From IMG/VR virus record IMGVR_UViG_3300031785_000040, positions 1-29,127 of that record: 29,127 nt of DNA. One strand, 5' to 3'. The notes under the pieces were generated by a model. That model was not told where the DNA came from. It made no database searches and worked only from the letters and a program-made list of their open reading frames with translations. Below are positions 3,037-12,885 of this stretch, in pieces (the first letter of the stretch is position 1; every line of letters starts with the position of its first letter). Made by a program: the position numbers and the translations under genes. Source of the stretch: a virus.

Positions 3037-3918
3037 CTAATCTTTAATTTTTAATTTGTTTTTAGTTTCACTATATGCTTTCACAACCAATGACTTACCA
3101 CCCACGTTCGGAGCACCCATATTTGATACATAGTCTTTCCATTCAATCTGTTCAAATATGGTGCGAACATAGTTTTTATTTGATTTGAACAAATAGTGTG
3201 TAGTTGTCTCAGGTGTAACTGCATCCATATCACAAACACCTATCTTACCCCAATACTTGAGTGCAAAATCCCAATACTCTTGATTCTTAATTTGTTTTCT
3301 CACTTCTGGGAGTCTTGGAACATTGTCACAAGTCAGGAACATTTCAAAGTCCTGATGTTTTGTTGGTGGTCTCTCTCTAATTCTAATATCTTTATATCCC
3401 TTTGACTTTGACCACACTTGCATACAACAAGGAACGTCATAGGGTTCTCCTTTGAATACAAAACTATTCTTAGGTAATATCTCGCTATGATATAATGAAA
3501 AAGACTTATCTAGTTGAAACTGAACCTTCCAAGATGTTGACCACTTTGCAGGAACTATAAAGGCAATCAGTTCACTAAAAGTTGCTGCGTGATTAAAGAA
3601 ACCCTTTGCCAATGGATTCATATAACCTGTTCCAAATGGAGGGTTAGTAACTGTAGCGATTCTTATATTATTAGTAAGTGGATGATATGGCGAATTATAT
3701 TTGAAAAAATCTTGTTTGATAATATTACTACCCTCTGGTTCTATATCCATTCCTACCGAACTCGATGGTAGATATTGTAATATATTTCCACACCCTGCAG
3801 CTGGTTCTATGACCATATCAAAAGCATCTAGTGGATAGTATTGATTGACAATATCCACAAACCTTTTAGCAATGTCAGGGTGTGTATAAAACTTATCTAA
3901 ATCCTTTTCCTTTGCCAT
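3037..3918 (-). CDS. NPPF-type N6-adenine DNA methyltransferase
   Basis: A 293-aa SAM-dependent methyltransferase. Motif I, EPAAGCGN, is at residues 38-45, followed by DIEP at 58-61 (acidic residue that holds the SAM ribose), QDFF at 69-72 and catalytic NPPFG at 92-96. The order motif I then IV and the NPPF sequence fit gamma-type N6-adenine enzymes, although NPPY/F is also used by some RNA and protein-glutamine methyltransferases. The N-terminal KDLDKFYTHPDIAKRF resembles the phage-type adenine methylase opening, where FYT-P positions the cofactor. No endonuclease is adjacent. With the SPPY enzyme it gives this phage two methyltransferases of different class within 3.5 kb. Start chosen at ATG 3918-3916, 14 bases after a predicted transcription start. 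Confidence 0.85.
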   Translation of the reverse strand: MAKEKDLDKFYTHPDIAKRFVDIVNQYYPLDAFDMVIEPAAGCGNILQYLPSSSVGMDIEPEGSNIIKQDFFKYNSPYHPLTNNIRIATVTNPPFGTGYMNPLAKGFFNHAATFSELIAFIVPAKWSTSWKVQFQLDKSFSLYHSEILPKNSFVFKGEPYDVPCCMQVWSKSKGYKDIRIRERPPTKHQDFEMFLTCDNVPRLPEVRKQIKNQEYWDFALKYWGKIGVCDMDAVTPETTTHYLFKSNKNYVRTIFEQIEWKDYVSNMGAPNVGGKSLVVKAYSETKNKLKIKD

Positions 3919-4027: not shown

Positions 4028-5122
4028 TCAACTTTCTACACCTTTTTTCCAATTATCAAAATTCCATTTTCGCCATTGACCATACATTTCTTTTGAATTC
4101 ATATTATTAGAGTCACTTATCATTTCTAAAAATTTAGAATCAGGATTAAATGGTAAAGATTTAGCATATTCCCAAAATGGTGTGTCATATTTTGAACCGT
4201 ATTGATAGTGCCACAATATAATGTTTTCAAGTTGTTTCATATTTTCCCTAATTTTATTATTACAATAATTTGGTGTTTGCAGTTCAAATAATAAATCCCA
4301 AGACTGCCTACAAATAAATTGATAAAAGGCAACAGATGTCGCTTCTAGTGGTTCTATGAATCCATACATATTTCCCTGTAATATAGTTCTACTACCATTG
4401 TAGAAATTTTTTGCCATATAATTATCAAAATCAAGACAATCAGTTATTTTATCTAAATTAAATCTAGATGTAAAGTCATTAATTGCATCTTCTTTTTTAG
4501 TAATACTATTATTATACAAATAACCATAGGATACACTATCTTGATTTGGAATCACAAATGTCCAACCATTTGGTGTTGCCACACATCTAGTATAGGTTAA
4601 ATCAGGGTCTCTTTCATGTTTTTTAGAAAGAAGAACACTATTCAATGGATTTATTAAAATATCATAATTACTTTTATCTCTATTGTGCCTTCCCCTGCAA
4701 TCAAAAATAAGATTTGCATCTATATCTTTTTCTGGATTACTTATGATTTTTTCTTGAACTTTAAATAAATTTGAATCTATTACACACTCAGATAACTTTT
4801 TAGGAACAAAATGCATTGATGCATTTGGCATTAAAAATGGATGAAATATCTTATCATTTTTCTTACCCCAACCTTCATATAATATACCTGTCTTAAATGT
4901 AGCACCTATTGGATTATGATACCAATTGATATTAAGTACTGATGAAATTAATTCTGGGACTTGAATAGTAGTTCCTTGTCCTACTTTTTCTATTGGATGA
5001 TAGTGAGGACTGTGATAAATTTCAATCTCGAATTGATCAGTAACGTCTGTTAAAAATTTATGGAAGTGTAATGCTGTTACACAACCTGCATTGCCAGCTC
5101 CAATAATAGCAATTTTAATCAT
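4028..5122 (-). CDS. Flavin-dependent halogenase (tryptophan halogenase family), short form
   Basis: A 364-aa FAD enzyme. The N-terminal GAGNAGC at residues 8-14 is the Rossmann dinucleotide motif. FKTGILYEGWG at 76-86 places Lys77 where the catalytic lysine of PrnA/RebH-type halogenases lies. EPLEAT at 257-262 places Glu260 at the second catalytic acid. WTFVIP at 187-192 corresponds to the WxWxIP signature, with Phe replacing the second Trp. These residues are read by eye against the family. Family members use FADH2, oxygen and chloride or bromide to halogenate aromatic rings. Characterised tryptophan halogenases are about 500-540 residues, so this is about 150 shorter, with reduced substrate-binding regions, and the substrate may be a peptide or small molecule other than tryptophan. 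Its start overlaps the upstream oxygenase-like gene by 4 bases (ATGA). Confidence 0.82.
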   Translation of the reverse strand: MIKIAIIGAGNAGCVTALHFHKFLTDVTDQFEIEIYHSPHYHPIEKVGQGTTIQVPELISSVLNINWYHNPIGATFKTGILYEGWGKKNDKIFHPFLMPNASMHFVPKKLSECVIDSNLFKVQEKIISNPEKDIDANLIFDCRGRHNRDKSNYDILINPLNSVLLSKKHERDPDLTYTRCVATPNGWTFVIPNQDSVSYGYLYNNSITKKEDAINDFTSRFNLDKITDCLDFDNYMAKNFYNGSRTILQGNMYGFIEPLEATSVAFYQFICRQSWDLLFELQTPNYCNNKIRENMKQLENIILWHYQYGSKYDTPFWEYAKSLPFNPDSKFLEMISDSNNMNSKEMYGQWRKWNFDNWKKGVES

Positions 5123-5640
5123 TTAATAAAAAAAGAGAGTGTTAATCGACCTGTTTTAAGTGTATCTCCAAATAAATCTGTCGGTGCATGTGTGTAACAA
5201 GACGGATATGCTACTAACCTATTAAATTTATTATCTACATCATTGCTATGTTCATTAACAATAATTGTAGTTCCAGTTTTATTTGGAGCATTTGGATTTA
5301 AATAAACAACACCTGCAAATTTAGAATCATCAGTGTGAAATTTATTTACATGAAAATTTGGTAAAGAGTTTTTTGTATCATCAATTGATATATGAAAATA
5401 AAAATAATACTTGTCTGCATATGTATCATAATTATAAAACTCACTCACCTTTTGTTTAATTTTTTGGCAAGTTCTAAAAATTAAATAGTTACTTGAACCA
5501 CTTAACTCATCCGTTCTAAATCCTCTCCAGCCTACTTTATGACTCATTTCTTCATGACTAAAAAATCTAGATGACAATGCAAATTCTCTCAAATCTTCTG
5601 CATTATCAAAAAAATTATCTAAAATTAAGATTCTACTCAT
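5119..5640 (-). CDS. 2OG-Fe(II) oxygenase-like protein
   Basis: A 173-aa protein with the layout of a compact double-stranded beta-helix oxygenase. HTD at residues 102-104 gives the first two metal ligands, His151 (CYTHAPTD) the third, and Arg165 in GRLTLSFF a candidate 2-oxoglutarate anchor. It opens with a strand-helix segment, ILDNFFDNAEDLREFA, often seen in this fold. I think it belongs to a DUF6445-like branch of phage oxygenases, without certainty. It is the first gene of the minus arm and overlaps the halogenase start by 4 bases, so the two products are made together. The predicted transcription start falls on its ATG, suggesting a leaderless message. The substrate is unknown. Confidence 0.75.
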   Translation of the reverse strand: MSRILILDNFFDNAEDLREFALSSRFFSHEEMSHKVGWRGFRTDELSGSSNYLIFRTCQKIKQKVSEFYNYDTYADKYYFYFHISIDDTKNSLPNFHVNKFHTDDSKFAGVVYLNPNAPNKTGTTIIVNEHSNDVDNKFNRLVAYPSCYTHAPTDLFGDTLKTGRLTLSFFIK

Positions 5641-5646
5641 ATTAAT

Positions 5647-5675
5647 ATAATAGCAGAGATATAGACTCTTGACAA
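5647..5675 (-). promoter_or_regulatory. Sigma70-type promoter, minus arm of oxidative cassette
   Basis: On the minus strand TTGTCA (5675-5670) is followed after exactly 17 bases by TATTAT (5652-5647), with TGC as an extended -10. The predicted start is at about 5640, the A of the ATG of the 173-aa gene, so the message would be leaderless. Its -35 shares five bases with the divergent plus-strand promoter. Confidence 0.75.
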
Positions 5676-5697
5676 GTTCAACTATATAGAATATAAT
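5669..5697 (+). promoter_or_regulatory. Consensus sigma70 promoter, plus arm of oxidative cassette
   Basis: TTGACA (5669-5674), 17-base spacer, TATAAT (5692-5697): a full consensus match at both hexamers with ideal spacing. The predicted start is about 5704, 14 bases before the ATG of the first oxygenase gene. No ribosome-binding sequence fits in the leader. Such a promoter should be read by unmodified host RNA polymerase, which suggests early or lysogeny-independent expression unlike the surrounding late genes. Confidence 0.85.
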
Positions 5698-5717
5698 ATA
5701 TTATTGACTTTTTGTAC

Positions 5718-6305
5718 ATGGAAAATAATAGAGTTACTGATTTTATTATAAGATATAAAAATATTTTTTCAAGACAAGAATGTAGAGAAATAATTGAATT
5801 AATTGATTTTTTTGACGAGAATAGTTTACTTTTCCCTCAAAATTTAAATAATCGACCTTTTCAAGATCAAGATGCAAACAACTTAATGGTTGATGATGGA
5901 GTGACTTTACCCACAGTTCACAAGGTTACGAAAAAAATGTTTCCAAAAATTCAACCTTGTGTTGATAAATATCTCGAACAATTTCCACTTCTAGGTTCAA
6001 GAAAATTTATCATACACGATTGTAAAGTAAAAAAAATTATGTGTGGTGCTGGATTTCACGCTTGGCACTACGAAAATGGAAATGTCTCAGATGCAAGAAG
6101 AACATTTGTAGTTCAAATTTATCTCAATGACGATTTTGATGGTGGTGAAACAGAATTTTTGTATCAAAATAAGAGAGAGAAAGCAGTTGCTGGCGATGTT
6201 TTAATTTTTCCCTGTCAATATACTCACGTACATAGAGGTAATCCACCAATTGATGGAGACAAATATCTAGTTACCTCTTGGGGTTGGATACAAAGTGAAA
6301 ACTAA
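5718..6305 (+). CDS. 2OG-Fe(II) oxygenase, prolyl-hydroxylase-like
   Basis: A 195-aa protein of the 2-oxoglutarate/Fe(II) dioxygenase superfamily. The iron-binding HxE is His117-Glu119 (AWHYENG). Next come RTFVVQIYLN and the DGGETEF strand pair typical of prolyl-4-hydroxylase-like proteins, then the distal histidine in THVHRG (His172 favoured over His170) and Lys182 as the likely 2-oxoglutarate anchor, where many relatives use Arg or Lys. I chose ATG 5718. The frame also has TTG at 5712, but ATG is the standard start and lies after the predicted transcription start. First gene of a three-gene plus-strand operon; its stop shares one base with the next ATG. Abundant in marine T4-like phages, with substrates not established. 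Confidence 0.88.
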   Translation: MENNRVTDFIIRYKNIFSRQECREIIELIDFFDENSLLFPQNLNNRPFQDQDANNLMVDDGVTLPTVHKVTKKMFPKIQPCVDKYLEQFPLLGSRKFIIHDCKVKKIMCGAGFHAWHYENGNVSDARRTFVVQIYLNDDFDGGETEFLYQNKREKAVAGDVLIFPCQYTHVHRGNPPIDGDKYLVTSWGWIQSEN

Positions 6306-6955
6306 TGAAAGAACAACTTGAAGCAGAAATATATTGCGAACCATTTCCACTAATGGTTGTCAATAACTTTTATAATCAGCAAGAATTAAATTTGATTTGG
6401 AAAGAATTAGATTTTTATACTGCTCCTAATAAATTAGTATCTGCTGAAAATTATGGGGGTGTCGTTGGTTATACAAATGCAAAAGCTCTCATATTGGATG
6501 ATTTGTATAGAAATTATGAAAGTGATGAAAAAGGTGTAGACTATAGAAATATATCCAATATATTAACAGTCAATCGAAAATTGTTTGAATGTGGTGTTTT
6601 AGATACTTTTGCTAATATTCATGGTTGCGTAAGTATTGCGAATAAAACAAATCATGATATCACTAAAGTTAGATACTACCACGATGGCGAATACTACGAT
6701 CCTCATACAGATAAAAGCACAATGTTTCTTGCTTTCTCCTACTTTTACAGAGAACCTAAAAAATTTGTTGGTGGGGATTTAGAATTTCCAAAATATGATT
6801 TCAAATTACCATGCACCAATAATTCAATGGTTATTTTTCCTGGTTGGGTAGAACACGGAGTTCGTAAAGTTAAAATAAAAGACTCTGATTACTACGATGG
6901 TTGGGGAAGATATGCTATCACTTCTTTTTTTAGTTGCAGAGATAATAAAAAATGA
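6305..6955 (+). CDS. 2OG-Fe(II) oxygenase
   Basis: A 216-aa dioxygenase-fold protein. The HxD pair is His134-Asp136 in YYDPHTDKS, the GGDLEF segment follows at 156-161, the distal His is 184 (FPGWVEHGVRKV) and Arg202 in GRYAITSFF is the expected 2-oxoglutarate ligand. All four key positions are present and the HxD is canonical, unlike the HxE of its two operon partners, so it is not a recent copy of them. Its ATG overlaps the previous stop by one base (TAATG) and its own end overlaps the next gene by 4 bases (ATGA). A soluble cytoplasmic enzyme is expected. The substrate could be protein, nucleic acid or a small metabolite. Confidence 0.87.
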   Translation: MKEQLEAEIYCEPFPLMVVNNFYNQQELNLIWKELDFYTAPNKLVSAENYGGVVGYTNAKALILDDLYRNYESDEKGVDYRNISNILTVNRKLFECGVLDTFANIHGCVSIANKTNHDITKVRYYHDGEYYDPHTDKSTMFLAFSYFYREPKKFVGGDLEFPKYDFKLPCTNNSMVIFPGWVEHGVRKVKIKDSDYYDGWGRYAITSFFSCRDNKK

Positions 6956-7557
6956 AGGAATTTCCTAATTTTATTTCAGTATATGACAATGCTCTTACTA
7001 AAAATGAGTGTAAATTAATCATAGATGAATTTGAATCAAATAAAAATAAACATGTAAGAGGTAAAAGTGGTAATTATGAGGTGCAACCAGAAGTAAAAGA
7101 TTCTACTGATCTTGGTTATGCTATGAATGATAAATCAATTACATCAACTATATTAAGCAAATCATTAAATTTTCATGTAGATTTATATAAAAAACAATAT
7201 CCAGATTTAACTAATTTAATTTATCCTTGGGCATGTATGAATTCATACAACATACAAAAATATGAACCAAATCAGGGATATTTTAGTCACCACTGTGAAG
7301 TTGCAAGTGTTATGACCTCTAGTCGTGTTCTCGTTTGGATGTTCTATCTTAATACAGTTCCTAATGGAGGAACTCTTTTTCCATCTTATGAAATTGGAAC
7401 AAATGCAATACAAGGTAGATTGGTTTTATGGCCAGCATATTGGACTCATGGACACAAAGGACAGATAAGTGACACCCATGTAAAATACATCGCAACTGGG
7501 TGGCATATTTTTACAGAAAAAATAGTTTATTCTTGTCCTATTGATTTCAAAGATTAA
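6952..7557 (+). CDS. 2OG-Fe(II) oxygenase, prolyl-hydroxylase-like
   Basis: A 201-aa dioxygenase. It starts with the EFPNFISVYDNALTKNECKLII opening common to prolyl-hydroxylase-like phage proteins, here residues 3-24. The metal triad is His114-x-Glu116 (SHHCE) with a distal His at 166 or 168 (YWTHGHKG), and Lys178 is the likely 2-oxoglutarate anchor. NGGTLF at 138-143 is the usual strand before the distal histidine. It resembles the first gene of the operon in motif choice (HxE, HxHxG, Lys) more than the middle one. Its last 4 bases overlap the end of the minus-strand glycine-rich adhesin gene, so early and late transcripts run into each other here, with no terminator visible between them. 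Confidence 0.87.
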   Translation: MKEFPNFISVYDNALTKNECKLIIDEFESNKNKHVRGKSGNYEVQPEVKDSTDLGYAMNDKSITSTILSKSLNFHVDLYKKQYPDLTNLIYPWACMNSYNIQKYEPNQGYFSHHCEVASVMTSSRVLVWMFYLNTVPNGGTLFPSYEIGTNAIQGRLVLWPAYWTHGHKGQISDTHVKYIATGWHIFTEKIVYSCPIDFKD

Positions 7558-8570
7558 TAAAAAAGATATTGTGAACCACCTGCAGCACCCGAACCATTAG
7601 CACCTGCTAGACTTTTACCACCAGTAGCATTTCCACCAGATTGACCAGGATTTCCTCCTGCTCCCCCATTTCCACCTTCTGCTTCTGAATCATCTCCTCC
7701 AATACCGCCAGGACCACCAGAATTTTGATTTCCAGATTGACCTGGTTGAGCACCAGCAACACCACTAGTTGTGCCTCCAGAACCAGCGGGTATACCAGCA
7801 CCGCCACCGCCACCTCCACCACTAGCAGAGTTATAGTCACTAAACCAAGCAAAACTGTCATTTTGCTCTGATCCAGAACCTGAACCACCACCTCCACCAC
7901 CAGCGATTATTGCACCACCACTAGCAATAGAAATAACATTTTGCATACCAGGTATTAATTTCATTGCACTCGATCCAACACCACCGTTTGCTCCAGCACT
8001 TTCTTCATTTCCTGTACTTCCACCGTTACCACCCTTACCAGCAACAACACCTTGTGAACCAACATCTATGGAAAAAGTCGTTGCACTTGGCCAACCAGCT
8101 TGAGAGTTATTATTATTTGTATTACCTGTTTTAACTGCAACATGAGATTGACTACTAGCACCAGCAGAACCAAATGTCTTATTAATATGAATTATAACCT
8201 TCTTACCACCACGCCATCCATTTTTATTAATACTACTTTTATAATTACCAACAATCCTATAATTTCCATTAGCAAATCTATTAGCGTATACATCTAAATT
8301 GAAATTTGTATTACCACTTGAATGCATATCAACAACAATATTTAATTGTTTACCATAAAAATCACTAAATTTTATCTCTCCAGATTTAGGAATACCAGTA
8401 TCTAGAGGTAAATCATTTAATGTGCCTCCAAATGGCACCATACTCTCATTGTTAAAATCTGGATGAGTGTTTCTATAACTACCTAAACTTCTTAATGGAT
8501 TGTTTCCAAATTCTGCTTCAATATCATTTTGAAAACTTAATTGTTGTCCTGATGTTTTATTAATTGCCAT
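7554..8570 (-). CDS. Glycine-rich putative tail-fibre tip adhesin
   Basis: A 338-aa protein in two parts. Residues 1-165 are mixed and include a short phage structural segment, GEIKFSDFYGK at 64-74. Residues about 170-333 are dominated by glycine with runs such as GGGGGGGAGIPAG (251-263), alternating with Ser, Asn and Ala. The chain ends in the aromatic QYLFY. Polyglycine-rich C-terminal halves are known from T4-like gp38 adhesins, where Gly-rich helices pack side by side and exposed loops bind the receptor. Placement as the last gene of the fibre block fits that role. Homology to gp38 itself is not shown, and a general Gly-rich structural protein is the alternative. The gene starts 3 bases after the protease stop. 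Confidence 0.7.
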   Translation of the reverse strand: MAINKTSGQQLSFQNDIEAEFGNNPLRSLGSYRNTHPDFNNESMVPFGGTLNDLPLDTGIPKSGEIKFSDFYGKQLNIVVDMHSSGNTNFNLDVYANRFANGNYRIVGNYKSSINKNGWRGGKKVIIHINKTFGSAGASSQSHVAVKTGNTNNNNSQAGWPSATTFSIDVGSQGVVAGKGGNGGSTGNEESAGANGGVGSSAMKLIPGMQNVISIASGGAIIAGGGGGGSGSGSEQNDSFAWFSDYNSASGGGGGGGAGIPAGSGGTTSGVAGAQPGQSGNQNSGGPGGIGGDDSEAEGGNGGAGGNPGQSGGNATGGKSLAGANGSGAAGGSQYLFY

Positions 8571-8573
8571 GTC

Positions 8574-10244
8574 TTAAGAGGTTGTTTGATACCTAACTCT
8601 AGGATATTTAACTGTAGAGGTATTTCTATTCTTATGTAGTTGAGCTGGACTTGCCATACCACTATCAGGTCTTTTCTTAGGAATAAAGGCATAACGATTA
8701 TTACTATCACCAAAACCTTCATATGGTGATTGCTCTGGCAATCCTTGTGAACCAATTTCTGGTAGAGAATTTTCAATTAAATGTTGTAGTGCTTCTGCTT
8801 GAGTAAGATTTGGTTCTTGTTCTGCAAGACAGGCGACTATACCAGCAACTTGAGGACCTGACATACTCGTGCCACTAATAGATGCTAAATGATAGGAACT
8901 ATTTCTAGGATCTTGTGCTGTAGAACCATATTGTTCTGCTATAGCACTCGCCTGATCAAAAACAGCAGAAATAATATCACTTCCAGGTGCCCAAATATCT
9001 ACACGACTACCCCAGTTACTAAAATTAGATTTATATTCTGCAACTTTAGAACCAATTGATCCTACACAAATAACATTATCTGCTGATCCAGGTGATGACC
9101 CTCTTGAAAAATAATAGGGGGTTACACCTACTCTCAGATAATTGTTGTAATCCTGACCTGTTGGAATTTCACAATTCCAATAACTATTTCCAGCAGATGC
9201 TATAACAATGACCCCATCATTTATAGCATCTTGTAAATCAGCATCCACTGCTGAATTTCTACCAGGTACTCTATAAAGAATACTTGCGTATCCATATGGA
9301 CAAGGAATACCATTTGCCTCTAAAGTTGTTACCTTCTGACTGTCTGACATCGAAGACATATCAGTGAGTGTGCCTCGATAGTTTACAGCGTTGAATAAAG
9401 ACAAACTTAAATTACCATAAGAGGATCCCCAACTGTTATTCATTACAGTTGGATTTCTTCTTCCTGTGCTTGTATTAATAGGTTTATTTTTGTGAAAATA
9501 ACGAACATAATCCCACATATATTGAGCCCAACTATTTCCCCCGTAACCAGAGAGAGCACTTGAAAATGCAATATTGTAGATATTTGCGTCTCTTGCCCAT
9601 CCTTGTGTATTACCACATGCGGTTCCTGCAACGTGAGTGCCATGATTTTCATTTGGAGATGCACCAGAGGTACTATACGTATATGTTGTAGGAGTTCCAG
9701 AGTACCCTAAAGCAGAGCTATATTGATACCAATTAAATTGATTTACTCTACTACCACCAGTGCCATCAGTATTAACAGCAAACTCAGGATGATCTGGATT
9801 TACATGACTGTCAGCGATTATGACATCAACATTTTTTCCTGATGAAGTTGTATTAATAGTTTGATTTGATATCTCTGTTGTTGAATCACTTCCCCAATTT
9901 GATACGGAATCTCCTTTTATCATTCTATAAAGACCCCAGTTTTTATCATCAGTTTCAAGAGTTGATGTTGTTTTTTCAAAATCACCAGTTTGTGTCCAAT
10001 GTGGTAAAAATTCAATACCTTGGTCAAATGGATTCAACTCACAAGCAAGCACTCTACTATCTTGACTTATCTCATTTGCTTCTGCTTCAGTAAGCATATA
10101 ATGTGTATTTCGACTAATATTTCTTCTTTGTAATAATTCTACTGCCCTATCTGGAATATGAAGACTTCCACCTGGTGTCTCCATATCATCATAGAGACTT
10201 TGAAGGTCTTCATGAGTCTTACAAGTAACAATATATTCTTTCAT
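8574..10244 (-). CDS. Subtilisin-family (S8) serine protease
   Basis: A 556-aa peptidase S8. Residues about 1-75 look like an inhibitor-type propeptide. The catalytic domain has Asp145 (IIADSHV), His201 (NENHGTHVAGT), the oxyanion Asn353 (SAGNS) and Ser460 (GTSMSGPQVAG), so the triad is complete. About 259 residues separate His from Ser, more than in small subtilisins, suggesting inserted surface loops. No signal peptide is seen, and export would have to be by inclusion in the virion. It sits between fibre genes, which suggests a structural-associated protease acting on phage fibres during maturation or on host surface protein. A strong GGAGG site lies 4 bases before the ATG, inside the end of the upstream gene, with a TAATG overlap. 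Confidence 0.92.
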   Translation of the reverse strand: MKEYIVTCKTHEDLQSLYDDMETPGGSLHIPDRAVELLQRRNISRNTHYMLTEAEANEISQDSRVLACELNPFDQGIEFLPHWTQTGDFEKTTSTLETDDKNWGLYRMIKGDSVSNWGSDSTTEISNQTINTTSSGKNVDVIIADSHVNPDHPEFAVNTDGTGGSRVNQFNWYQYSSALGYSGTPTTYTYSTSGASPNENHGTHVAGTACGNTQGWARDANIYNIAFSSALSGYGGNSWAQYMWDYVRYFHKNKPINTSTGRRNPTVMNNSWGSSYGNLSLSLFNAVNYRGTLTDMSSMSDSQKVTTLEANGIPCPYGYASILYRVPGRNSAVDADLQDAINDGVIVIASAGNSYWNCEIPTGQDYNNYLRVGVTPYYFSRGSSPGSADNVICVGSIGSKVAEYKSNFSNWGSRVDIWAPGSDIISAVFDQASAIAEQYGSTAQDPRNSSYHLASISGTSMSGPQVAGIVACLAEQEPNLTQAEALQHLIENSLPEIGSQGLPEQSPYEGFGDSNNRYAFIPKKRPDSGMASPAQLHKNRNTSTVKYPRVRYQTTS

Positions 10245-12862
10245 TAATCCTCCAACTTAAGGTAATGTAAAGTGACTTGTATTGGGTATGCACTGCTCTC
10301 TTTGTTTACAACTTTAACGTATGTATTAGTTGAGGGAGTACTATCATTATTCCACCCAATTACACCAGGTGTTAATATTTGTGTTGCAGCACCACTTGTA
10401 ATTACTTCAGCAATGACACCAGAACCTGGTAAAGGATCAGTGGTTTCTGCTCTACTTGCGTCATTAGATCTAGAAGTCACATCTGTATATACAGTTACCC
10501 ACGCAGCATAATTTGTTTGAATTTTTTGTAAAACATATGATTTTGCTGTTGTCATATTTAAATCAGCAGCAGATCCAGATGCTAAACTAGCAGTGGTTGC
10601 TGTATCAGTGGTTCTTGATTGAAGACTACTACCACCACCTCCACCAGATGATGTAAATGTTACCTCATCTCCAGTTGAATTTGTTGTGATAGTCATGCCA
10701 GTACCACCAACAAAAGTTACAGTGTCAGTTTTTGAGTCTGCCTGTACAGTATTTTGACCACTAACAGAAATATTAGAAAATGCGTTTTGGTTTACTTCTC
10801 CTCCACCACTATTTGCTTCAAGAGGTGTCCAACTAGCACCATCATATACCTCTAACTTATTGATTGTACTATTAAAAATGAAAGCACCTGTTGCTGTACT
10901 ACCAGCTCCAGTAGTGTGTGCATTTGAAAATACATTTCTTTGAGATGTTGTTACTACAGGTGGAACCATATATGCCATTTTTTGTCTGACACCTGTATTA
11001 TCTGGGATGTTTACTACATCAGAGAAATCAACTGCACATTGTGCTGTATTACCGACTGAGATTGAATTATGAACAAATACATCAGATTTTAATTCAACAT
11101 TTACTGAACTATTTGAAAAGACATCAGTTCCAATCGCAACTCTTCCATCCGTAGTTACTAAAACTTTACTTTCTATGTTAGAGTTGATATGAAGTGCTTT
11201 TCCTTGGTCAGTAGTTCCTATACCTACTCCACTAGAAAATAATTTTGGTATTGTTGAAATACCTGTACTAGGTGAATTGATTAATCCAGTTAAATTTCCA
11301 GTTACATTTCCTTGCAAATCACCAAGAACAGTTGTTACATTCAATGTTCCTGTTGTAAATGATCCTGTGACATTAAGATTACCACCAACATCAAGATCAC
11401 TTGAAATATTAGCACTACCAAAAACATCTAATTTTTTTGAAGGGACTGTCAATCCAATACCTAGTGAACCTCCTATACCAGTCAAGGTCATTAAACGATC
11501 ATTATTAAGACCTCTATGCCAGAAGAAATTACCCTCAACATTATTAGCATTTGCTGCACTTAGATGATAATTGAAATTACCTGTTCCATAATTAATTAAA
11601 TCAAATGACTGTGCTGAACTATAATTTGCACCAATATCCTGACCATATCTTATTTCTGCATTATTAGTGTTGCTTACACCACTTTCTCTACCAACAGTGA
11701 TACCAGCTGTTCCTGTGTCGCTTGTTATTTGTAATTCAGTGTCTCCTGTTTTTCTTAAATGTATATCACTAACTGGATTTGCAACTCCTACTCCAAGTTT
11801 AGATACTGCGGTTATAGTTCCTGATGAATCTATATCTCCAACATTATAAACTTCCGTACCTGTTCCAACCCTACCATCTGTTTCTTTATTAACTATTTCA
11901 TACCATCCTCCTGCGTGTGAGAAGTAACCTCTACCAGTTGAATGAACGTGAGCAAACATACCATGATATGTACTAGCATTGGGCAAGGCACCCATATTAG
12001 AATATAATGATGGTATTTTGTTTTCTCCAGATACACCAGTTATAGTAGAATTAAATGTGGATGTTGCAGGGACAGTTAAATTATCTGATGAATTATTACC
12101 AAGAGTCGTGTTACCAAGTACATTTAAATTTCCATCAACATTGGCGTTTCCAACAGCAGAGAGAGTTGTTACAGTGATATTTGGAGTTCCTTGTAAACCA
12201 CTTGCATTACCAGAGGTATTTTGATTACCAGGTATATTAACACCTGGAAGATCAATACTGGCAGTGCCATCAAAAGGTAATCCACCTATATTTCTTGCAG
12301 TTTGTAATTTAACTGCTGCATCTGCCAGAGTAGCGGTGGTGACATTACCATTAAATGAACCAACAAAAGTTGTTGCTGTTATAATACCTGATGCGTGAAT
12401 ATTACCTACAGAACTAATACCTACACCCATATGTGAAGGTGGGAAACCTCCAACTTGCAAGGTGCTTGTAGCGTTTGTTGTTCCAATTCCACAATTTTGT
12501 GACGTAAGAGCAATACCAGTATTTGAACTTACAAATTGTGTGCTAGGAAGATTTTGTAAATATTGACCATCACCATAAAATGTAACAATTCCTCCACCAC
12601 CTGTGCTTGTAACTATACCACTTTTTATACTTACACCCGCACCAATAATCTCTGTTGGATTGAAAGTTGTTACTGTTAATACACCTGATTGAGCATTAGG
12701 AAAACTTGATATTCCAGATACAATTAAATTACCTTCAACATCAAGTGCTTCAGTAGGAACAGTTTTTCCTATTGCAACCAATCCAGTAGAGGTTACTAAC
12801 AGGTTGTCTTCATCAACCTGAACACCATTCCTAAAATTGAAACTCTTCTTAATATTCGCCAT
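10244..12862 (-). CDS. Tail-fibre / virion structural protein with GIGTT repeats (872 aa)
   Basis: An 872-aa beta-rich fibre protein. The start, ANIKKSFNFRNGVQVDED, leads straight into repeats of the pattern (V/C/L)GIGTTxPxxxLDVxG, seen near residues 28, 124, 465 and 565, each followed by short valine and asparagine-rich strands. Such repeats form trimeric beta fibres. The C-terminal part (about 745-872) is a separate beta-sandwich-like domain, with SYVLQKI, WVTVYTD, GSGVIAEVITSG and HYLKL strands, that recurs at the tips of marine phage fibres. There is no S74 chaperone tail, unlike the two larger fibre proteins. A candidate late promoter overlaps the preceding stop codon. A structural role is well supported; which fibre it belongs to is not. 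Confidence 0.85.
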   Translation of the reverse strand: MANIKKSFNFRNGVQVDEDNLLVTSTGLVAIGKTVPTEALDVEGNLIVSGISSFPNAQSGVLTVTTFNPTEIIGAGVSIKSGIVTSTGGGGIVTFYGDGQYLQNLPSTQFVSSNTGIALTSQNCGIGTTNATSTLQVGGFPPSHMGVGISSVGNIHASGIITATTFVGSFNGNVTTATLADAAVKLQTARNIGGLPFDGTASIDLPGVNIPGNQNTSGNASGLQGTPNITVTTLSAVGNANVDGNLNVLGNTTLGNNSSDNLTVPATSTFNSTITGVSGENKIPSLYSNMGALPNASTYHGMFAHVHSTGRGYFSHAGGWYEIVNKETDGRVGTGTEVYNVGDIDSSGTITAVSKLGVGVANPVSDIHLRKTGDTELQITSDTGTAGITVGRESGVSNTNNAEIRYGQDIGANYSSAQSFDLINYGTGNFNYHLSAANANNVEGNFFWHRGLNNDRLMTLTGIGGSLGIGLTVPSKKLDVFGSANISSDLDVGGNLNVTGSFTTGTLNVTTVLGDLQGNVTGNLTGLINSPSTGISTIPKLFSSGVGIGTTDQGKALHINSNIESKVLVTTDGRVAIGTDVFSNSSVNVELKSDVFVHNSISVGNTAQCAVDFSDVVNIPDNTGVRQKMAYMVPPVVTTSQRNVFSNAHTTGAGSTATGAFIFNSTINKLEVYDGASWTPLEANSGGGEVNQNAFSNISVSGQNTVQADSKTDTVTFVGGTGMTITTNSTGDEVTFTSSGGGGGSSLQSRTTDTATTASLASGSAADLNMTTAKSYVLQKIQTNYAAWVTVYTDVTSRSNDASRAETTDPLPGSGVIAEVITSGAATQILTPGVIGWNNDSTPSTNTYVKVVNKESSAYPIQVTLHYLKLED

Positions 12863-12877
12863 CAGTATTTTTTTAGT

Positions 12878-12885
12878 TATTTATT
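12878..12885 (-). promoter_or_regulatory. Candidate late promoter AATAAATA before 872-aa fibre gene
   Basis: The minus strand reads AATAAATA, a 7/8 match to the T4 late box TATAAATA. It lies over the stop codon of the 1949-aa gene, 16 bases before the next ATG. AT-rich context makes chance matches easy; support comes from similar boxes at other gene junctions. Confidence 0.45.

Follow-up and report, generated by a model that had tools for sequence, protein, structure and literature searches.

Linkage of 2-oxoglutarate/Fe(II) oxygenase genes to a predicted gp38-type tail-fibre adhesin gene in marine T4-like phages

Introduction

The virus record IMGVR_UViG_3300031785_000040 (29 kb, referred to as a whole as the window) covers part of the tail region of a marine T4-like phage; in it, a gene for a flavin-dependent halogenase-fold protein (HAL) stands beside four genes for 2-oxoglutarate (2OG)/Fe(II) oxygenases or oxygenase-like proteins (OxA, OxB, OxC and OxD), and this locus raises the question of what such a set of oxidative enzymes acts upon in a phage. 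The initial annotation described positions 4028–7557 as a transferable five-gene module and listed a modified protein, nucleotide or metabolite as its possible product. A linked oxidative cassette is indeed present, but it does not move as a block of five genes, and the constant partner of the oxygenases is a gene just outside that span, GLY, which encodes a predicted tail-fibre adhesin. The modified protein among the listed products matches the reading favoured here.

Marine T4-like phages carry few accessory genes more often than those for 2OG oxygenases; multiple copies of the latter, together with tryptophan halogenases, have long been known in cyanophages (PMC3037559; PMC2984593). Working ideas for their roles have so far been the control of 2OG/nitrogen metabolism and DNA repair (PMC3037559), and according to a paper from 2022 no study had been devoted specifically to what viral 2OG oxygenases do (PMC9602691).

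The features on which the analysis centres are the following.

4028–5122, minus strand: HAL, compact flavin-dependent halogenase-fold protein of 364 residues (PF04820, phrog_2928 and an AlphaFold2 model)
5119–5640, minus strand: OxD, DUF6445-type 2OG/Fe(II) oxygenase-like protein
5647–5675, minus strand: divergent OxD–HAL promoter, TTGTCA-17-TATTAT, 10/12 match
5669–5697, plus strand: strict sigma-70 type promoter of the oxygenase operon, TTGACA-17-TATAAT, 12/12 match
5718–6305, plus strand (open reading frame from 5712): OxA, prolyl 4-hydroxylase-type 2OG/Fe(II) oxygenase, HxE...H...K (PF13640)
6305–6955, plus strand: OxB, 2OG/Fe(II) oxygenase, HxD...H...R (PF13640)
6952–7557, plus strand: OxC, prolyl 4-hydroxylase-type 2OG/Fe(II) oxygenase, HxE...H...K (PF13640)
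7554–8570, minus strand: GLY, predicted gp38-type glycine-rich receptor-binding tail-fibre adhesin of 338 residues and proposed substrate

Linkage of the oxygenases to GLY

A search by similarity to GLY alone gave 56 non-redundant GLY genes, in 53 of which the sequence continues for 1.5 kb or more downstream. In 52 of the 53, the next 1.5 kb contain an oxygenase of the OxA, OxB or OxC type, and in 45 it lies within 100 nucleotides (nt). The background for genes other than GLY is about 10–30%: among control genes with sufficient sequence downstream, such an oxygenase follows within 1.5 kb for 37 of 361 from halogenase-scan loci, for 16 of 131 from annotated cyanophage stretches and, in an inflated control drawn from the same loci as GLY, for 51 of 162. 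The arrangements observed are convergent OxC-OxB-OxA (18), co-directional OxA (17), co-directional OxA-OxB (9), convergent OxB (7) and OxB-OxA (1), the enzymes of the co-directional class usually lying 6–54 nt (up to 496) behind GLY on the same strand. In a tree of 89 GLY proteins, which were partly gathered through OxB and were hence excluded from the linkage rate, well supported branches show at least three switches of orientation, and the arrangement changed about 17 times. The conserved unit is the pairing of OxA/OxB-type oxygenases with GLY and not the five-gene set.

Three GLY genes in the tree (L264, L077 and L081) have no neighbour of the OxA, OxB or OxC type; a 2OG_5-type oxygenase is present within about 5 kb of each and a halogenase within about 5 kb of two. 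L077 (3471–9727) and L081 (3597–9720) contain a differently built cassette in which the gp38-type gene is followed by a protein of 670–680 residues, the 2OG_5-type oxygenase, a protein of 190 residues, a halogenase and a second 2OG gene. In a contig of an Acidimicrobiaceae metagenome-assembled genome (L281, 5113–6588), an OxB-type gene begins 13 nt after the gene of a different glycine-rich protein, which contains 44 glycines per 100 residues and is unmatched by the GLY profile.

The adhesin and its tail-fibre neighbours

The sequence of GLY has no match of note in the PDB (best E value 0.15) and none at cut-off in Pfam. Its AlphaFold2 model, with a predicted local distance difference test (pLDDT) score of 89.3, resembles gp38 of phage S16 over model residues 2–338 (6F45 chain D; Z score 17.3, root-mean-square deviation 5.8 over 230 residues) and the receptor-binding domain of PP01 gp38 (9V85; Z score 15.9, root-mean-square deviation 3.1 over 195 residues). 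In T2-type long tail fibres, gp38 is the tip that binds the receptor, and it consists of a polyglycine-II sandwich with hypervariable loops (PMC12892980). On the basis of the model, GLY is assigned as a gp38-type tail-fibre adhesin with a glycine-rich domain of the polyglycine type and is predicted to bind the receptor at the fibre tip.

The genes of two tail-fibre proteins, T1 and T2, precede GLY, and T1 stands before GLY in relatives as well.

10244–12862, minus strand: T1, tail-fibre protein upstream of GLY (phrog_3269 tail protein, E value 1.3 × 10−56)
12878–12884, minus strand: T4-type late promoter core ATAAATA, upstream of T1, the subtilase gene and GLY

T1 is a candidate gp37-like shaft. 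In the window it is separated from GLY by a subtilase (S8) gene (8574–10244, minus strand), which is present in the near-identical L002 and L003 and absent from this position in most other relatives. The ATAAATA motif is rarer in the window than expected by chance (5 against 14.6), and its four minus-strand cores, at 12878, 18805, 19027 and 24689, all lie shortly 5′ of tail-region genes.

Gene layout and promoters

All five open reading frames of the cassette were confirmed, with overlaps of 4 bases between HAL and OxD, 1 between OxA and OxB and 4 between OxB and OxC, in keeping with the 1–4 base overlaps initially reported. The transcription of OxA–OxC against the other genes is likewise correct within this window. 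The OxA reading frame opens with TTG at 5712, the ATG at 5718 being the likelier start, and 71 bases separate the OxD and OxA frames. The shared promoter region between them is real and stronger than originally claimed: the two back-to-back promoters overlap in their −35 boxes, the sequence TTGACAA being read both ways, and both are conserved in relatives. A promoter with at least 11/12 matches precedes the first oxygenase in 25 of 29 convergent-class loci, whereas 300 random windows of L003 gave 11/12 twice and 12/12 never; the divergent OxD–HAL promoter is found with 10–11/12 matches in 18 of 19 loci. From the sequence, OxA–OxC would be expressed early and GLY late.

The terminator that was thought to bound the cassette is not supported. 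OxC ends in a 4-base tail-to-tail overlap with GLY, the terminator-like hairpin (7356–7374) lies inside OxC, and such matches are near the shuffled expectation (4 against 2.6).

The oxygenases

OxA and OxB match the 2OG-FeII_Oxy_3 family (PF13640) above its cut-off, with E values of 3.5 × 10−9 and 3.8 × 10−8, and OxC barely exceeds it (27.5 bits, cut-off 27). OxD matches DUF6445 (32.6 bits, cut-off 24) and falls below the cut-off for PF13640 (20.4 bits against 27). The metal triad HxD/E...H, noted initially in all four proteins, is accompanied in each by the 2OG-binding lysine or arginine. These residues are H119xE121...H172...K184 in OxA (numbered from the TTG at 5712; n = 96), H134xD136...H184...R202 in OxB (n = 104) and H114xE116...H166...K178 in OxC (n = 43), each 98–100% conserved among homologues, and H102xD104...H151...R165 in OxD (15 of 15 homologues). 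The OxC profile matches prolyl 4-hydroxylase structures, among them the bacterial enzyme 5HV0 (E value 3.7 × 10−7), and the OxB profile matches the prolyl 4-hydroxylase 6T8M (E value 0.004), while the OxA profile has no match in the PDB. OxA and OxC both have the HxE...H...K site of prolyl 4-hydroxylases. OxB and OxC thus resemble protein prolyl hydroxylases, which are the nearest solved structures found.

The halogenase

HAL matches the Pfam Trp_halogenase family (PF04820; E value 1.9 × 10−33, 116.5 bits, cut-off 21) as well as phrog_2928. The catalytic Lys77 and Glu260, initially reported as intact, are conserved in 100% of 101 homologues, in which the first two glycines of the GxGxxG motif (G8-A-G10-N-A-G13) are also conserved. 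In agreement with the original assignment as a halogenase, the AlphaFold2 model (pLDDT 92.7) has a flavin-dependent halogenase fold and matches such enzymes over its full length, with Z scores of 38.2 for AbeH (357 residues aligned), 33.3 for the lanthipeptide halogenase MibH and 29.9 for VirX1. In an alignment with PyrH, residues 97–147 of HAL stand opposite residues of about 96–240, indicating that HAL lacks a large block after the first part of the flavin adenine dinucleotide-binding domain, and its active site may be more open. The position of the WxWxIP motif reads WxFxIP (W187-x-F189-x-I-P192) with the phenylalanine conserved. Since this motif differs and the protein, without the block, has 364 residues against about 500–540, HAL is not classed as a canonical tryptophan halogenase; sequence and model place it in the PF04820 fold superfamily of flavin-dependent halogenases, as a compact member.

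Joint movement of the five genes, as expected of a transferable module, is not seen in relatives. OxD is missing from L007–L014, OxA, OxC and OxD are all missing from L015 and L019, and HAL is missing from many co-directional loci. L034 has a co-directional set of GLY, OxA, OxD, a 2OG_5-like gene and HAL. Homologues of HAL beyond this clade mostly lie in other surroundings, with ribonucleotide reductase genes, head genes or others close by. As HAL, OxC and OxD come and go, a single mobile five-gene unit is rejected, and HAL is a lineage-specific addition to the adhesin–oxygenase unit. Around 33 non-redundant HAL loci with at least 2.5 kb on both flanks, a 2OG gene is nearby in 21, compared with 65 of 171 controls, which is a moderate excess; a glycine-rich gene is nearby in 8 of the 33, and a general tie between halogenase and adhesin is unsupported.

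Genomic context

A helicase gene in the neighbourhood of the cassette shares 60–68% identity with genes from myoviruses of Prochlorococcus and Synechococcus and from single-cell marine viruses, and the phage is therefore likely to be a Kyanoviridae-like cyanophage. Two DNA-methyltransferase-type genes (379–1341 and 3037–3918, minus strand) lie to the left of the cassette and flank a helicase gene and the HldE-like nucleotidyltransferase gene listed here.

1338–1775: HldE-like nucleotidyltransferase, left of the cassette

Proposed function

With moderate confidence, we propose that OxA, OxB and OxC hydroxylate the neighbouring adhesin GLY. The persistence of the linkage through rearrangement, the intact catalytic sites, the resemblance of OxB and OxC to prolyl hydroxylases and the joint layout with the adhesin favour this explanation, in which GLY as the substrate, the residues modified, the timing of expression and the effect on the adhesin are inferred. 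The gp38-like model of GLY, the 2OG_5-type oxygenases near the three GLY genes that lack an OxA, OxB or OxC neighbour, the separate case of L281 and the enzyme runs beside tail-fibre genes in syn9 and Syn10 also speak for it. OxA–OxC would act as 2OG/Fe(II) protein hydroxylases on side chains of GLY, the polyglycine-II (glycine-rich) domain or the tip loops being the probable sites, and, having their own host-type sigma-70 promoter, could be in place during synthesis of the late adhesin. The outcome would be altered receptor binding or adhesin stability. In the convergent lineage, OxD and the compact HAL, expressed from the back-to-back promoter with the shared −35 region, may add further hydroxylation or halogenation; the action of HAL on the adhesin is a more tentative suggestion.

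Several observations weigh against adhesin hydroxylation. The linkage may reflect co-inheritance within a tail-fibre exchange locus, and the glycine-rich domain of GLY shows no enrichment of X-Pro-Gly, which would be expected for collagen-type prolyl hydroxylation. For a distant GLY-like protein related through its N-terminal part alone (L279), no oxygenase could be recognised within the following 4 kb. Conversely, OxB-type genes occur without GLY in L024 (15004–15639) and L280 (1242–1868), where they sit between an exonuclease-like gene and that of a conserved protein of 198–200 residues, and in cultured cyanophages they occur away from any GLY, still near tail-fibre genes. To our knowledge, enteric gp38 genes have no such neighbouring oxygenases and their adhesins function without such enzymes.

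The oxygenases could instead modify a component of the host surface (lipopolysaccharide, a nucleotide sugar, a pigment or a lipid) and so change the receptor in the course of infection, for example in superinfection exclusion; enzymes and adhesin would then stay together because they have to suit one and the same receptor. The HldE-like nucleotidyltransferase gene would suit this explanation, as would the use by convergent-class oxygenases of their own strict sigma-70 promoter in place of the late promoter of the adhesin; but the co-directional enzymes follow the adhesin gene so closely on the same strand that joint expression is suggested, and the structural relatives of OxB and OxC act on proteins, so that a host-surface target is considered unlikely. 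About as unlikely is mere hitch-hiking at a hot spot of tail-fibre exchange by oxygenases with accessory roles in DNA repair, in setting the 2OG level or elsewhere in metabolism. Such roles have been proposed for cyanophages, 2OG oxygenases are numerous in these phages (24 in S-SCSM1; PMC9602691) and other genes of the same loci are fairly often near one (the 51 of 162 above), yet hitch-hiking accounts poorly for a near-complete and mostly immediate adjacency to a single gene family despite several rearrangements.

Joint tailoring of a metabolite by the halogenase and oxygenases, as in biosynthetic clusters, would agree with the small-molecule substrates of the tryptophan halogenases among the fold relatives of HAL and with the in vitro halogenation of diverse small aromatics by VirX1 (PMC8407142). 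Among the annotated genes of the window, none was recognised as coding for a scaffold-building enzyme, and the five genes are not kept together, which makes this improbable. Modification of nucleic acid appears the least probable: two DNA-methyltransferase-type genes are nearby, but OxA–OxC match 2OG-FeII_Oxy_3, OxB and OxC are closest to protein-modifying enzymes, and the match of OxB to Tet_JBP is weak (14.7 bits, cut-off 34.9).

If adhesin hydroxylation is correct, the way in which ocean phages recognise their hosts would rest on a post-translational chemistry that is invisible to genome-based host prediction. The near-obligate link to a gp38-type adhesin allows the function of these oxygenases to be asked about directly, for one specified protein as the proposed substrate, and puts such adhesins forward as a possible class of natural substrates of phage halogenases, VirX1 among them. 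A wider possibility, about which we are doubtful, is a dedicated, oxygen-dependent pathway of adhesin maturation in marine T4-like phages, in which hydroxylases encoded next to the adhesin, in some lineages together with a compact halogenase, edit the polyglycine tip and tune host recognition; a share of the many phage 2OG oxygenases that are still unexplained would then have this role in common, and phage halogenases would have a natural substrate.

Comparison with known systems

GLY is like gp38 of S16, PP01 and T2 in its whole-length predicted fold, its glycine-rich domain and, in relatives, its position after a tail-fibre gene, but is longer (338 against about 250 residues), is flanked by oxygenases and lacks a sequence match in the PDB. 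The bacterial prolyl 4-hydroxylase of the Bacillus anthracis type (5HV0/3ITQ) is matched by the OxC profile and shares HxE...H...K with OxA and OxC; the setting of OxC differs in that GLY has no Pro-Gly enrichment. VirX1 of cyanophage Syn10 also comes from a marine T4-like phage and shares the flavin-dependent halogenase fold with HAL, although the sequences are distant, VirX1 has 531 residues (PMC8407142) against 364 and the activity of HAL is predicted.

The 1593-nt halogenase gene of the cultured cyanophages Syn10 and syn9, which fits the VirX1 gene in length and source, is accompanied by a run of oxygenases. This run (syn9 gp41–gp54) resembles the cassette in that two halogenase genes come first and 2OG, JmjC and DUF6445-like genes come after them, next to tail-fibre genes, but it contains more enzymes, all co-directional, and no GLY homologue was detected in this stretch. 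In syn9 gp41–gp60 (L278, 10966–22789), the two halogenases and the many 2OG, JmjC and DUF6445-like genes lie right behind the tail-fibre genes. In the literature no description of this enzyme run as a unit was found; the open-access literature yielded nothing relevant on hydroxylation of phage tail fibres and no paper linking cyanophage 2OG oxygenases or halogenases to an adhesin. The enzymes and the adhesin are themselves of known kinds; what is new is their dedicated pairing.

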